Shown here: in pieces, positions 58,650 to 63,071 of the stretch
Layout: the number at the start of each line of letters is the position of its first letter
How positions within the stretch are numbered: the first letter of the stretch is position 1
Origin: Armatimonadetes bacterium Uphvl-Ar2
Lineage (GTDB): Bacteria; Armatimonadota; Fimbriimonadia; Fimbriimonadales; Fimbriimonadaceae
Direction: 5' to 3'
Assembly (NCBI GenBank): GCA_002162095.1
Contig: CP021424.1
Coordinates: 2,232,001-2,296,000 of the forward strand
Length of the DNA stretch: 64,000 bases
The notes under the pieces: model-generated
The model's database searches: none
What the model was told of the DNA's origin: nothing
What the model saw: the letters and a program-made list of their open reading frames with translations, nothing else
Program-made: the position numbers and the translations under genes

Positions 58650-58725
58650 GCGCTCGTAGCTCAGTGGATAGAGCATCAGCTTGCGGAGCTGGGGGTCGGA
58701 GGTTCGAGTCCTCTCGAGCGCGCCA
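58650..58725 (+). tRNA. tRNA-Arg (GCG)
   Basis: The cloverleaf is perfect: acceptor GCGCTCG/CGAGCGC, D arm GCTC...GAGC, anticodon stem TCAGC/GCTGG around the loop TTGCGGA (anticodon GCG), T arm GGAGG/CCTCT with TTCGAGT, discriminator G and encoded CCA. Bacteria usually decode CGN with tRNA-Arg(ACG), modified to ICG by TadA; a GCG anticodon is uncommon. Its 3' half is repeated 2.9 kb downstream, marking it as an integration site. Confidence 0.96.
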
Positions 58726-58726
58726 A
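58686..58726 (+). repeat. 41-bp direct repeat, copy 1 (att-like, in tRNA-Arg 3' half)
   Basis: This copy begins at the end of the anticodon loop (GAGCTGGGGGT...) and runs through the CCA plus one base (...GCGCGCCAA). It is identical over 41 bp to 61623-61663. It is the typical location and length of an attachment site of a tRNA-targeting integrase. Confidence 0.88.
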
Positions 58727-58995
58727 TCTCAGTCTAGTCCTTCCCCGTTCCGTTCCGGGCACATGGCTGACACCTTGACCAGCAGCTGCTGGCCGTTCCT
58801 CGCGTTGCGTTTTCGCGGAGGCGGAACACACCTTCTTCGACCCTCAATCGTCTGAATCGATGAGCGCCCTTGACTAGGACCCTCTTAAAGGGTGCCCACG
58901 GAGTTGAAGGAAGGTAGATTTTGGGGACGAACCTGTTGAATTCATTAAATGGGCCATTAGACCCACTGGGGGGCAATAGGTCTTATCATGCAGTT

Positions 58996-60369
58996 ATGAG
59001 GCACCTCCTCATCCTGCTTTGGGCGGCTTGCTTCTGCCTTTCCCTGTCCCAAACCACCCCCGGCGGTGGAGGAGGTGGAGGTGGTGGCGGCACCAACCAG
59101 AATCCAGCTGAGGACGACTTCGATGGTTACACTGAGATACCGACGGGCGATGAAGTTAACGGCCAACCATTTGCGTGGATCAAGGTAAATGTTTCCACTC
59201 CGGGCGTTGACTCGGTAGAGGACTATATTAGCGGAACCAATACTGCCGTATCCTGCCAAGCCGTTGTTGTTCCCAATGCCGCATGGCCAGGGACCCAAAC
59301 CGAGATTGAAGGATATACGTTGATGAATGTCCAGATCACCGTTGGCGGCCAAAGTATCGTAAACCAATCATGGGACCTGAATGGCGTCTGCAATGAGGGA
59401 TATCTCAACATGCCGCCGAACTTCACTTTTGCCAGCACCCACTTTGATCACGGTTCGGAATGCGAGATAAAGCTACAAGGCCAGTTCCAGGCTTATAAGA
59501 TAGAAGGCGGCATCCGAGTACCGGTAGGGTCGCTGATGACGCACTATGCCCGACTGAAGCCAAAGGTGCATAACAAAGTCGTGGGGTGGCGAACTCATGT
59601 GATGTATGATCCTGACAGCCAGTCTGGGAGTGGCATCCCTTGGCCAGAGCCTGACAATACCTACATCGGCGCTGTTGTCAATACTCTTAAAGCAGCATTT
59701 GCAACGTCTAAGTATGATGTATCTCTCGTAGATTTGGGAGTGGTGCAAAGGAGCACGTTGTTAGATCGTTACCAAGATATCACGGCGATCATTCCCAACA
59801 CTCATGGCGGCACTGGCGGCTTGTACGACTCGGACGGTTGGGCTGCATCCAATGACCGCCTTACTTGGAATCAACAATCTGCCGCGATAAACTCTAGTGG
59901 CGCCAGAGGAAGCGACAACGAGTTACCCAAGACACATATGCATTTTGCGTACGCATGTTCTGCAGGTAGCGGTCCATTTTACGCTCGTAACGCCCTGGAA
60001 ACAATGGAGACGGGAGGAGCATTTTGCGGCTTCGCAGATCCCATATGGTCCAGATGCAAAACTGCTGAAGGCCATGAAGTTAGCTTAGCTCTTCATGCAT
60101 CAGAAATTGCGAATAGGTTGCTGAGCGGATACTCCCTTGGGGAAGGCGTAATAAAGGCAAATGAACTTTACAAGACTGGATGGAAATATCCTCATCCGAC
60201 AGATCCAAACCAGCATATCTGGGAGGAAAGGCTCATGTTGGTACATGGTGATGCTCTGTCTACATTAACTTGGGTTTATCTGAATCAAGTCGAGAGAGCA
60301 GCCGTGCAATCAACGCCGAATCCTTTTTATACTGACTGGAAGCGCATTCGCTGGGCTGGCGGCAACTAG
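58996..60369 (+). CDS. Secreted caspase-like (clan CD) protein with poly-Gly linker
   Basis: The 457-residue product has a signal peptide (MRHLLILLWAACFCLSLSQ), a run of ten Gly (23-32), a beta-rich middle (about 45-185) and a C-terminal part resembling clan CD (C25/CHAT-like) peptidases: His270 in NTHGGTGG, Cys321 in FAYACSAGSG 51 residues later, then SGYSLGEGVIKA and MLVHGDALSTL, which fit the LGEA and GDP segments of C25-like proteins. Residues outside these motifs are unfamiliar. It starts 6 bases after TATCAT, so a leaderless mRNA is likely. The gene is the first of the islet and is followed after 14 bases by the exported paralogue. Confidence 0.65.
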   Translation: MRHLLILLWAACFCLSLSQTTPGGGGGGGGGGTNQNPAEDDFDGYTEIPTGDEVNGQPFAWIKVNVSTPGVDSVEDYISGTNTAVSCQAVVVPNAAWPGTQTEIEGYTLMNVQITVGGQSIVNQSWDLNGVCNEGYLNMPPNFTFASTHFDHGSECEIKLQGQFQAYKIEGGIRVPVGSLMTHYARLKPKVHNKVVGWRTHVMYDPDSQSGSGIPWPEPDNTYIGAVVNTLKAAFATSKYDVSLVDLGVVQRSTLLDRYQDITAIIPNTHGGTGGLYDSDGWAASNDRLTWNQQSAAINSSGARGSDNELPKTHMHFAYACSAGSGPFYARNALETMETGGAFCGFADPIWSRCKTAEGHEVSLALHASEIANRLLSGYSLGEGVIKANELYKTGWKYPHPTDPNQHIWEERLMLVHGDALSTLTWVYLNQVERAAVQSTPNPFYTDWKRIRWAGGN

Positions 60370-60383
60370 GGTACTCAAAAACG

Positions 60384-61559
60384 ATGCTGATATCACTCAC
60401 AATGTTTGTCTGTGGGACTTCGCTACAAGCGCAATCACCGTTTGCCATCGTCCGAGGTCGGGTGCATCCTTCTCAGATTGAGAAATTCGATCGATTGCCG
60501 ATCGAAGAGCTTTTCGTGAAGGCTGGTTTTTCTTCAAGGCAGACAATGCCCAAGCTGTTCGAAAATCTTCGTAATGGGGAAGGACAAGTAAGTGTCTCGC
60601 AGGGACTGACAGGCCGATTGCCTGATCGGCTCATCAGTGTGTCAATCAGGGACAAAGGCGGTTCGTCATCGCTGATAATCGTTTTCGACTCCGCGTCAGG
60701 AAGGCCGAGTACATGGCAATTCGAAAAGGATGTTGCGGACCCGTGGAAAGTGGATGGTTGGCAAGGAACTGAGTCTAACATACGCCGAATTGCTGACGCG
60801 TTTGTGCACTCCAACTTTAGAGCAGATGCGGGACTTGAGTTTCTGACTATGATTCCCAAGGATCGCCAATACAGTGAAAGCATTACAAGGAGGAGTTGGT
60901 TCATTCCTTATCAATGGAAGCTGGACGGCCGCTACGTTGGTGGCAGTCAGGTGGCATCCGTCGTTGTGGATGGCGATAGTGGTGCAATACTAGGTTACTC
61001 AGCAACACTAGGGGATGTGCAAAGGAGACCATTGTGGCCAGGCGAAGTAGGTCAAAGCAGGTCTTACTTGGCTCAGCGGCTTGTCACTCGATACGGCAAT
61101 GGCTTCTATGGACTTGGTCAGGGAAACTTGATCTATTCGCCAAGAGAGGGTGATCGTTGGACTCTCGTGGCGAAATGGGAACTCCAGTGCACCGAATATG
61201 ACCAGTTGGGAAGGCGCAAAGCATTTATTCAGATCATCATGGATCCGGAAAGCAAGGCCGTCTTGCATGAAGACCGATCTGTAGGTGGCTTTGGTCCGAG
61301 TTCGCCCGTTCCCGGCTATCAGATTGCTGGAGAGTGGGAGGCTGGCGAAGCCAAGGGCCAAATCAAGGCCACCGACCGCAAAGCCACCCAGGGAGGCGTG
61401 CAACGCACGCTCACCAGCGGCAATCGGCTCCTCGTCGGCACGTTCTTCGCCGCCGAACGGCTCCTGGAAGTCAAGGGCGTCTTCTTTGAGGTGGACCCCG
61501 CGCTCAGCAAGGCCTTGGCGATAGCCCAGCCTCCTGCATCCTTAAACTATGGCCAGTAG
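60384..61559 (+). CDS. Secreted protein, islet paralogue 1, unknown function
   Basis: The 391-residue protein has a signal peptide (MLISLTMFVCGTSLQAQ, cleavage before SPF) and no recognised domain. A segment with DGRYVGGSQVASVVVDGDSGAILGY looks like PepSY/YcdB-type beta structure, but this is weak. It is colinear along its whole length with the protein at 61890, roughly 45% similar by eye in the first 330 residues but about 90% identical at the DNA level over the last ~160 bases, which are also much richer in GC. It is probably an operon partner of the caspase-like gene. Confidence 0.68.
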   Translation: MLISLTMFVCGTSLQAQSPFAIVRGRVHPSQIEKFDRLPIEELFVKAGFSSRQTMPKLFENLRNGEGQVSVSQGLTGRLPDRLISVSIRDKGGSSSLIIVFDSASGRPSTWQFEKDVADPWKVDGWQGTESNIRRIADAFVHSNFRADAGLEFLTMIPKDRQYSESITRRSWFIPYQWKLDGRYVGGSQVASVVVDGDSGAILGYSATLGDVQRRPLWPGEVGQSRSYLAQRLVTRYGNGFYGLGQGNLIYSPREGDRWTLVAKWELQCTEYDQLGRRKAFIQIIMDPESKAVLHEDRSVGGFGPSSPVPGYQIAGEWEAGEAKGQIKATDRKATQGGVQRTLTSGNRLLVGTFFAAERLLEVKGVFFEVDPALSKALAIAQPPASLNYGQ

Positions 61560-61889
61560 AGCGAGCGAGGTCACGACGCGCGGAGGAAGACTAGAATCCA
61601 GCCACCACGTCCGAGTTCAAATGAGCTGGGGGTCGGAGGTTCGAGTCCTCTCGAGCGCGCCAAGATCCGATTCGAGTCCTGGATCATTTTCGCACTCTAA
61701 GCCTCGACTGAGGACTGACTCGCTCCGGTGGTTTCACCCGTCAATACGAAGGGGAACGGATTCCATGTCTAAGTTTCACTGCTTTGTGGAGGCAGCTAAC
61801 CGGCTTTACTCACATCAAGTTAGGCTAGTCTACAGTCGTATCCACTTGCTGAGTGATCCCCATGATCTTTGCGGCTCGGAGCAGATTCT
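61560..61889. other. Intergenic region carrying the right repeat
   Basis: These 330 bases hold the second 41-bp repeat copy (61623-61663) and otherwise nothing I can support. The open frame through it uses the tRNA fragment and is not a gene. A ribosome-binding site (GGAG at 61878-61881) belongs to the next gene. Confidence 0.7.
61623..61663 (+). repeat. 41-bp direct repeat, copy 2 (att-like)
   Basis: Identical to 58686-58726, the 3' half of tRNA-Arg, but without the 5' half, so it cannot encode a tRNA. It fits the far attachment site of an integrated element. The low-GC region continues past it into the next gene. Confidence 0.88.
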
Positions 61890-63044
61890 GTGACTTTGAT
61901 GACCATCTTGGGCTTGGCGGTCAGCACAACTGACCTGTCCGCACAAACGCCATACCAAATCGTTCGAGAGCGAGTGCACCCCTCACAGCTGGCGACATTC
62001 GATGGATTGCCGCTCGAATCACTCTTCAAAAAAGCCGGATTTTCATCTTCTGAATCCATGCCTCGACTTTTTGAGAGACTTAAGCAGGGCGAGGGTTCGG
62101 TAAGTGTTCGTCAGAGTCGTAACGAAGCATCCTTAGATCGAGTTGTTTTTGTCTCCGTTTATGGACATCTGGGCTCGACCCAGCTCAACATGGCATTTGA
62201 TTCGGAAACCGGATATCTGACCTCATGGGACTTTACTCCGCCAACCACTGACCCTTGGAAGCGTAATGGTTGGAACAGGAGCGAGGCGCAAGCCCGCGAC
62301 ATCGCGAGTGCCTTTGCGAACTCGAATTTTCCCTTGAGCTCAACTTTGCGGATTCGATCCACGATTCCCAAGGTCCAGCCGATTGACGAGAGTGTGTCGA
62401 GAAGCACATGGCTTTTTGCACTTGACTGGGAGCTTGATGGACGTCATGTGGGGGGCATGCAGACGGCATCGGCCGAGGTTGAAGAGTCGAGTGGCGCCCT
62501 GTTGTCCTATCACGGGATCGTTGGAGAAATCCAACGTCGGCCCTTGCTTCCGAACGAACTTGAGGAAAGTCGGACGTACTTGGTTCAGAGACTTGTGGAC
62601 CGATTTGGCAACGGGTCCTACACACTAGGTACGCGCAATCTGATCTATGCGCCTATGGGAGATAGGTGGATGTTTGTACCCAAGTGGGAGCTTCTGTGCA
62701 CCGAGCTAAATCACCTTGGTCGACGAAGTGCGATAATTCAGATCGTCATGGACCCTGACACTAGGGAAGTGACCCATGAGGTCCGGGGCGACGCTGGCGG
62801 ATTTGGTGAAGCCCGTGACCAGAATGTCGAAGCAATTCCCAAAGTCTGGAAGCATGGTGACGTCGAAGGCCAGGTCAGAACCACCGACCGCAAGGCCATC
62901 GAAGGGGGCGTGCAACGCACCCTCACCAGCGGTAATCGGCTCCTCGTCGGCACGTTCTACGCCGCCGAACGGCTCCTGGAGGTCAAGGGAGTCTTCTTTG
63001 AAGTTGACCCCGCCCTCAGCGAAGCCTTGGCGAAAGCCCAGTAG
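61890..63044 (+). CDS. Secreted protein, islet paralogue 2, unknown function
   Basis: The 384-residue protein has a signal peptide (VTLMTILGLAVSTTDLSAQ) and the same architecture as the islet paralogue at 60384. Shared blocks are RVHPSQ, LPLESLFKKAGFSS, DPWKRNGW, GRHVGG and a highly conserved tail (TSGNRLLVGTFYAAERLLEV). I choose GTG 61890 because GGAG lies eight bases upstream; TTG 61869 and ATG 61899 are alternatives. It sits just outside the right repeat; AT-rich DNA extends through its first 80% and GC-rich DNA through its last 20%. Function unknown. Confidence 0.68.
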   Translation: MTLMTILGLAVSTTDLSAQTPYQIVRERVHPSQLATFDGLPLESLFKKAGFSSSESMPRLFERLKQGEGSVSVRQSRNEASLDRVVFVSVYGHLGSTQLNMAFDSETGYLTSWDFTPPTTDPWKRNGWNRSEAQARDIASAFANSNFPLSSTLRIRSTIPKVQPIDESVSRSTWLFALDWELDGRHVGGMQTASAEVEESSGALLSYHGIVGEIQRRPLLPNELEESRTYLVQRLVDRFGNGSYTLGTRNLIYAPMGDRWMFVPKWELLCTELNHLGRRSAIIQIVMDPDTREVTHEVRGDAGGFGEARDQNVEAIPKVWKHGDVEGQVRTTDRKAIEGGVQRTLTSGNRLLVGTFYAAERLLEVKGVFFEVDPALSEALAKAQ

Positions 63045-63071
63045 CCAAGGACGAGAAGCCCCGATGCCCGG

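Follow-up and report, generated by a model that had tools for sequence, protein, structure and literature searches.

How did a short, AT-rich segment with a gene for a secreted caspase-like protein come to lie directly behind a tRNA gene with no integrase beside it? The question is raised by a locus in Armatimonadetes bacterium Uphvl-Ar2, from which a stretch of 64,000 nucleotides (CP021424.1, positions 2,232,001–2,296,000; hereafter the window, with positions counted from its first nucleotide) was analysed and compared with related genomes. The genome of origin is denoted G000, and a second genome of the same genus G001. A preliminary description of this DNA had proposed a 2.9-kb islet between two copies of the 3' half of a tRNA-Arg gene, taken for a non-autonomous, tRNA-targeted cargo unit that may belong to a family spreading in trans. 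The segment is one of two tandem cassettes within a longer strain-specific tract. In our judgement it is moderately probable that the two together are cargo resembling a cis-mobilisable element (CIME), integrated site-specifically at the 3' end of tRNA-Arg(GCG) and stripped of its integrase. The features of the locus are as follows.

58650–58725, + strand: intact tRNA-Arg(gcg), the attachment gene (ARAGORN)
58686–58726, + strand: 41-bp repeat, copy 1, attachment-site (att) L-like; homology to G001 ends at 58726
58727–63066, no strand: whole strain-specific tract, 4,340 bp in G000 vs 82 bp in G001
58753–58780, + strand: terminal-repeat relic of a tRNA-targeting IS481-family insertion sequence (IS), 27 bp after the tRNA
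58996–60369, + strand: gene A, secreted caspase-like protein of 456–457 aa (signal peptide read by eye)
60384–61559, + strand: gene B1, exported protein of 391 aa (signal peptide read by eye)
61366–61529, + strand: 3' tail of B1, ~91% DNA identity to the tail of B2 (62878–63041)
61623–61663, + strand: 41-bp repeat, copy 2, attR-like or the junction of two tandem cassettes
61664–61690, + strand: terminator-like hairpin followed by TTTT (GATCC...GGATC-ATTTT), read by eye and unlike the tRNA hairpin of G001
61899–63044, + strand: gene B2, exported tandem paralogue of B1 (54% aa identity)

Extent and composition of the strain-specific tract

The gene at 58650–58725 is the sole full Arg-GCG tRNA of G000 and is strongly conserved across the bacterial family. 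The repeat spans from the final two nucleotides of the anticodon loop to one nucleotide beyond the tRNA 3' end, and its copies at 58686–58726 and 61623–61663 agree at 41 of 41 positions, as first described. No further copy with up to three mismatches was found in the window, and none arose by chance in 100 shuffled windows. The tRNA-Arg(GCG) 3' end occurs twice in the genome of G000 and once in that of G001, and a search of IMG/VR with the 41-mer gave no match.

The empty-site comparison suggested earlier was provided by G001, which lacks a second copy and aligns at 96% DNA identity up to 58726 and at 97% from 63067 onward. As homology stops at the first of these positions and resumes at the second, the strain-specific DNA corresponds to 58727–63066. 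Its place is taken in G001 by 82 bp, which include a hairpin resembling a tRNA terminator. The gain of genes A and B1 is indicated by the direct repeat that flanks them.

The 2,896 bp between the repeats have a GC content of 0.525, compared with a mean of 0.631 (standard deviation 0.014, minimum 0.586) in equal windows over the 58.7 kb to the left, and their tetranucleotide usage likewise lies beyond the background range (0.460 vs a maximum of 0.332). The AT-richness originally noted thus holds towards the left, but it does not stop at the right-hand repeat: positions 61664–63066 have a GC content of 0.542, lower than that of any of the 573 leftward windows of equal size, and this part, which is missing from G001, carries B2. 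Foreign DNA extends past the right-hand copy, to 63066, and the 2.9 kb cannot be kept as the whole unit. The absence of recombination genes was borne out, as no match to PF00589 was obtained in the window and no integrase, transposase or replication gene was found between the repeats.

Cargo of the two cassettes

The two genes first reported between the repeats, A and B1, were recovered as described, and neither could be assigned to a Pfam family. Relatives of A at 20–26% identity are present in several genomes of the family, and T269-H270-G271 and C321 are invariant in ten homologues, corresponding to the His-Gly/Cys dyad of clan CD. The AlphaFold model of A (predicted local distance difference test, pLDDT, 65.8) was matched by Foldseek to caspase-type folds with a probability of ~1.0, the matches including SAVED-CHAT (E 1e-7), caspase-11 (E 5e-5; TMt 0.55) and gingipain R (2.4e-3), while a sequence search of solved structures with A gave no match. 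On the strength of this model, A adopts a caspase/CHAT-type fold and is probably a clan-CD-like protease.

B2 lies outside the interval first described and inside the strain-specific tract. Beyond the locus, no relatives of the B proteins were found in 85 genomes of the family and 291 of the phylum, in GTDB contigs, in IMG/VR, or among plasmids and phages, by searches of which the degenerate-pattern scans reach close relatives only; one marginal match of 54 residues was returned, in G071. The predicted structure (pLDDT 41.8) was unusable, and a sequence search of solved structures gave one match at chance level (E 0.72). The A–B1 pair recurs nowhere else in the genomes searched. The cargo proteins are exported and probably act at or outside the cell surface.

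At the DNA level, B1 and B2 are ~55–60% identical except in the last ~165 bp. This tail is GC-rich in B1, with a GC content at third codon positions of 0.78 vs 0.50 in the rest of the gene and 0.77–0.84 in host genes. The near-identical tails would be accounted for by gene conversion between the tandem copies or by a constraint acting at the end of the cassette.

tRNA-bounded DNA, integrases and IS481 elements elsewhere

Among the 85 family genomes, a nearby second tRNA-Arg(GCG) 3' end is clear in G000 and in G103, a member of another genus; G062 and G069 each contain two inexact matches to this 3' end, at distant places. In G103 the repeated part comprises at least 45 bp, from the anticodon loop (TTGCGGA) to past the CCA, and the two copies enclose 2.6 kb of AT-rich, integrase-free DNA (L123:6580-9190), in which a gene for an RHS-core tip (TIGR03696, 81.8 bits) is accompanied by two small genes for exported proteins. 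This tip is detached, and its end resembles NlpC/P60 or CHAP; the cargo possibly comprises an effector tip and the matching immunity gene. Since the flanks of this islet are contiguous in G102, a relative of G103 (92% and 89% identity), a different, similarly small and integrase-free cargo entered the same tRNA in another lineage. An empty site is therefore available for each islet, in G001 and G102, respectively.

The neighbourhoods of the tRNA genes in G000 were scanned for 3' fragments, which the RF00005 model does not show. Behind tRNA-Arg(CCT), a row of three further 3' ends, 0.6–1.8 kb apart, was found (G000:C1:1493143-1496576; L175:101-3534), each interval holding one or two genes (the cargo comprises a glyoxalase-like gene, a methyltransferase and two hydrolases), and a second full tRNA copy follows; the locus measures 3.4 kb in G000 vs 0.95 kb in G001. 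The joints of this row are degenerate (89%). One of them has 12 bp beyond the CCA, CTATTTTGAACC, in common with an integrase-bearing element at tRNA-Arg(CCT) of G103, a hint of common descent of the joints. Two identical full tRNA-Arg(CCG) genes, one of which is present in G001, surround 5.3 kb in G000 (G000:C1:326033-331494; L165:101-5562), and this duplication takes in ~97 bp upstream of the tRNA. By eye, the genes between these copies are TetR-like, SDR-like, hydrolase-like and dehydrogenase-like. Fragments of tRNA 3' ends also lie behind tRNA-Ala(CGC) and tRNA-Glu in G000, while each Arg and Ala tRNA 3' end is present once in G001.

Of the four PF00589 proteins encoded in G000, two have the size of Xer proteins and the other two are phage-type. 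Both phage-type integrases adjoin 3' fragments of tRNA-Asn, not of tRNA-Arg, on which ground they were rejected as helpers of the islet: the tRNA-Asn gene (G000:C1:463894-510092) is followed by two further 3' copies of 46–47 bp, each beside one of these integrases. One of the two also adjoins a gene weakly matching the filamentous-phage replication protein G2P, and the first 8 kb behind the tRNA-Asn gene are common to G001. In G103, an integrase lies directly behind tRNA-Arg(CCT) (G103:C3:200189-270733; L188-L190), and two further 3' copies 52 and 71 kb downstream delimit large elements, arranged in tandem, whose right ends are similar. In tRNA-targeting elements, strand exchange by tyrosine integrases takes place in the anticodon loop. 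At tRNA-Arg(GCG) of G000, in both G103 islands and in the tRNA-Asn integrase elements, the repeats begin at or inside this loop. Apart from B1 and B2, no ends common to the islets and the integrase-bearing elements were detected at E 0.01.

A further layer is formed by an IS481-family clade, the relic of which at 58753–58780 is absent from the empty site of G001; the G000 islet holds one degenerate end only. In other genera, too, the 28-bp motif of this relic follows tRNA genes, often as a pair with 25-bp spacing; the phylum search, whose control was near zero, located the motif in 25 of the 85 family genomes. It starts 16–70 bp behind an intact tRNA at half of the loci (25 of 50) and follows a tRNA 3' fragment at three more. 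A complete copy of ~1.3 kb, directly behind tRNA-Val in G029 (L198:1385-2775), was assigned to the IS481 family by NF033577 (229.7 bits vs a cut-off of 224), and its terminal repeats match the left-end relic, of which, unlike in that copy, one end is left. The alternative that the motif represents integrase arm sites was rejected, as this complete copy has the same ends. Members of the clade end ~10 bp behind the CCA of Arg, Val, Met, Lys, His, Thr, Phe, Trp and Ala tRNAs (L194-L243). No paper describing this preference for tRNA 3' ends was retrieved by full-text searches, and no exact match to the IS-end pattern was present in the GTDB contigs, which possibly do not include close relatives. 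In the islet, the relic sits where the integrase lies in the tRNA-Arg(CCT) element of G103, so an IS-associated deletion may have removed the integrase.

Origin of the islet and comparison with known systems

In the reading that we favour, a site-specific recombinase, most likely of the tyrosine type, would have inserted circular DNA, itself bearing a 3' half of tRNA-Arg, at the tRNA gene. With strands exchanged within the anticodon loop, the tRNA would be rebuilt and another 3' half would remain at the distal end. The older cassette would be that of B2, the outer att copy of which has gone; a second cassette, with A and B1, would then have entered between the tRNA and B2 and left behind the 41-bp copy at 61623, which is perfect. 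Loss of the recombinase gene would have followed, most simply by deletion after integration. The IS481 relic, placed directly behind the tRNA in the usual position of an integrase gene, may mark this deletion.

Several points weigh against this course of events. No outer att copy was seen for the B2 cassette, and neither the tandem B copies nor their near-identical tails are required by the model. No integrase remnant was found inside the islet, so that we infer the loss of this gene. Synteny of the flank does not extend to G002, so that a gain of 61664–63066 in G000 cannot be distinguished from its loss in G001. A parent element would also be expected somewhere. The search for a tyrosine integrase that had been proposed was carried out with a profile built from the G000 and G103 integrases, applied to the 1–15 kb behind ~55 tRNA-Arg(GCG) genes of the family; it returned no integrase, although it would miss serine or very divergent ones, and no intact integrase-bearing element at these loci. 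Elements that bear an integrase and have the layout of the islet thus occur in the family, and none was found at tRNA-Arg(GCG).

The same result is used by a rival account that we regard as possible but doubtful, in which the islet is a non-autonomous cassette that never had an integrase and was moved in trans by one encoded elsewhere, with tRNA 3' ends as exchangeable joints at which rows accumulate. It is consistent with two unrelated cargos, of 2.6 and 2.9 kb, both integrase-free and at the same tRNA in two genera; with the row of short cassettes behind tRNA-Arg(CCT) in G000; and with the 12 bp common to one of its joints and the integrase-bearing element of G103. Against it, no integrase with specificity for tRNA-Arg(GCG) is known in G000 or the family, the islets have neither cargo nor ends in common save for B1 and B2, and the tRNA-Arg(CCT) joints are degenerate rather than fresh. 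The family spreading in trans that was first envisaged therefore gained no direct evidence, with A–B1 confined to this locus and the phage-type integrases of G000 placed at tRNA-Asn; the more general notion of a tRNA-targeted cargo unit gained from the empty site, the independent G103 islet and the tRNA-Arg(CCT) parallels, although not for the 2.9 kb alone. Loss of the integrase by deletion accounts for the anatomy equally well or better. A more far-reaching version, which we think rather unlikely, holds that a trans-acting recombinase of the family shuffles cassettes of one or two genes at tRNA-Arg via 3'-half joints, in the manner of an integron, with the IS481 clade adding turnover; the rows at tRNA-Arg(GCG) and tRNA-Arg(CCT) in G000 would be its products. 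Its grounds are that integrases are absent and sizes similar. Were it true, the rows would represent a second, integron-like route of gene capture; without such a recombinase, they would be CIME-like relics.

We consider it improbable that foreign linear or circular DNA was taken up and recombined by a RecA-dependent crossover in the tRNA 3' half, the tRNA serving as homology only and no site-specific recombinase taking part. The high conservation of tRNA-Arg(GCG) across the family would permit this, and the tRNA-Arg(CCG) duplication, with its ~97 bp of upstream sequence, fits homologous recombination at that gene. At tRNA-Arg(GCG), however, the 5' half is never part of the repeat, which in two genera begins within the anticodon loop, a boundary that homologous recombination would not respect, and 41–45 bp are short for RecA. 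Still less credit is due to a tandem duplication of a resident unit of tRNA 3' half plus B, after which the B copies diverged and A was inserted later. B1 and B2 do flank the second tRNA 3' copy and are 54% identical, but neither G001 nor any other genome searched in the phylum has B. Moreover, the B genes have diverged to ~55–60% DNA identity while the non-functional 41-bp copy is perfect; the repeat is therefore younger than the B split, which argues against a simple tandem duplication. Finally, an assembly duplication of the tRNA half, an artefact that would have undone the original proposal, can be dismissed for practical purposes, because the genome is a single contig, only the 41-bp repeat is common to two unique, differing flanks, the composition between the copies is foreign, and the independent G103 equivalent has a precise empty site.

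CIMEs and their tandem accretion were reportedly described by Pavlovic in 2004. They are defined by the loss of integration and transfer genes, the retention of att sites and tandem accretion (PMC5704250). The islet fits this definition: it retains attL- and attR-like repeats around the A–B1 cassette, not at the outer end of B2; it contains no integrase or transfer genes; and its units are stacked in tandem at the 3' end of the target gene. It differs in that no parent integrative and conjugative element or integrative and mobilisable element is known at tRNA-Arg(GCG) and in its very small units (1.4 and 2.9 kb); descent from such a parent and present mobility are putative.

Similar rows have been reported from Dehalococcoides, where islands at ssrA are bounded by the RNA gene and direct repeats of its 3' end, and some that have no integration module were suggested to be CIMEs (PMC3146451). 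The likeness lies in the row of units bounded by RNA-gene 3' repeats with integration genes missing; those islands involve a serine recombinase, the tmRNA gene and a 20-bp repeat, whereas the repeat studied here starts in the anticodon loop of tRNA-Arg, extends over at least 41–45 bp and is accompanied by no recombinase that could be found. The additive flexible genomic islands of Ca. Methylopumilus, with recurring 20-mers of the tRNA-Lys 3' end and a mechanism that is not established (PMC10872708), are likewise small, variable, strain-specific, bounded by tRNA 3' repeats and mostly obscure in function, but occur in another phylum, at another tRNA and with another repeat length. Tycheposons, as summarised in PMC10872708, have a tyrosine recombinase and span 4–200 kb; they resemble the islet as cargo-bearing, tRNA-bounded units, unlike which the islet has no tyrosine recombinase of its own. 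In comparison with integron cassette arrays without an integrase (CALIN), the cassettes of which are separated by attC sites, the repeats of the islet are by sequence tRNA 3' ends. The islet represents a known kind of gene-capture site, of which it is a well-documented member, and not a new system. It provides a strain-level case of small tRNA-captured cargo, in which empty sites in two genera allow insertion, stacking and integrase loss to be separated. The tRNA-Arg(CCT) cassette row, the tRNA-Asn integrase elements and the tRNA-3'-homing IS481 clade suggest that, in this family, tRNA genes serve quite generally as sites at which small gene units are captured.

Two minor observations concern other tRNA 3' ends. 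The tRNA-Ala(CGC) locus of G000 (L163:196-3704) contains a 37-bp tRNA 3' fragment together with DUF2199, SUKH, SAP-domain and TIR-domain genes; it resembles a toxin-immunity or defence spot, and its gene order is unlike that of G001. In addition, the motif TTTTGAACCTAA recurs in either orientation near tRNA 3' ends or fragments (L080, L150, L155, L187, L189, L190, L175 and L203).

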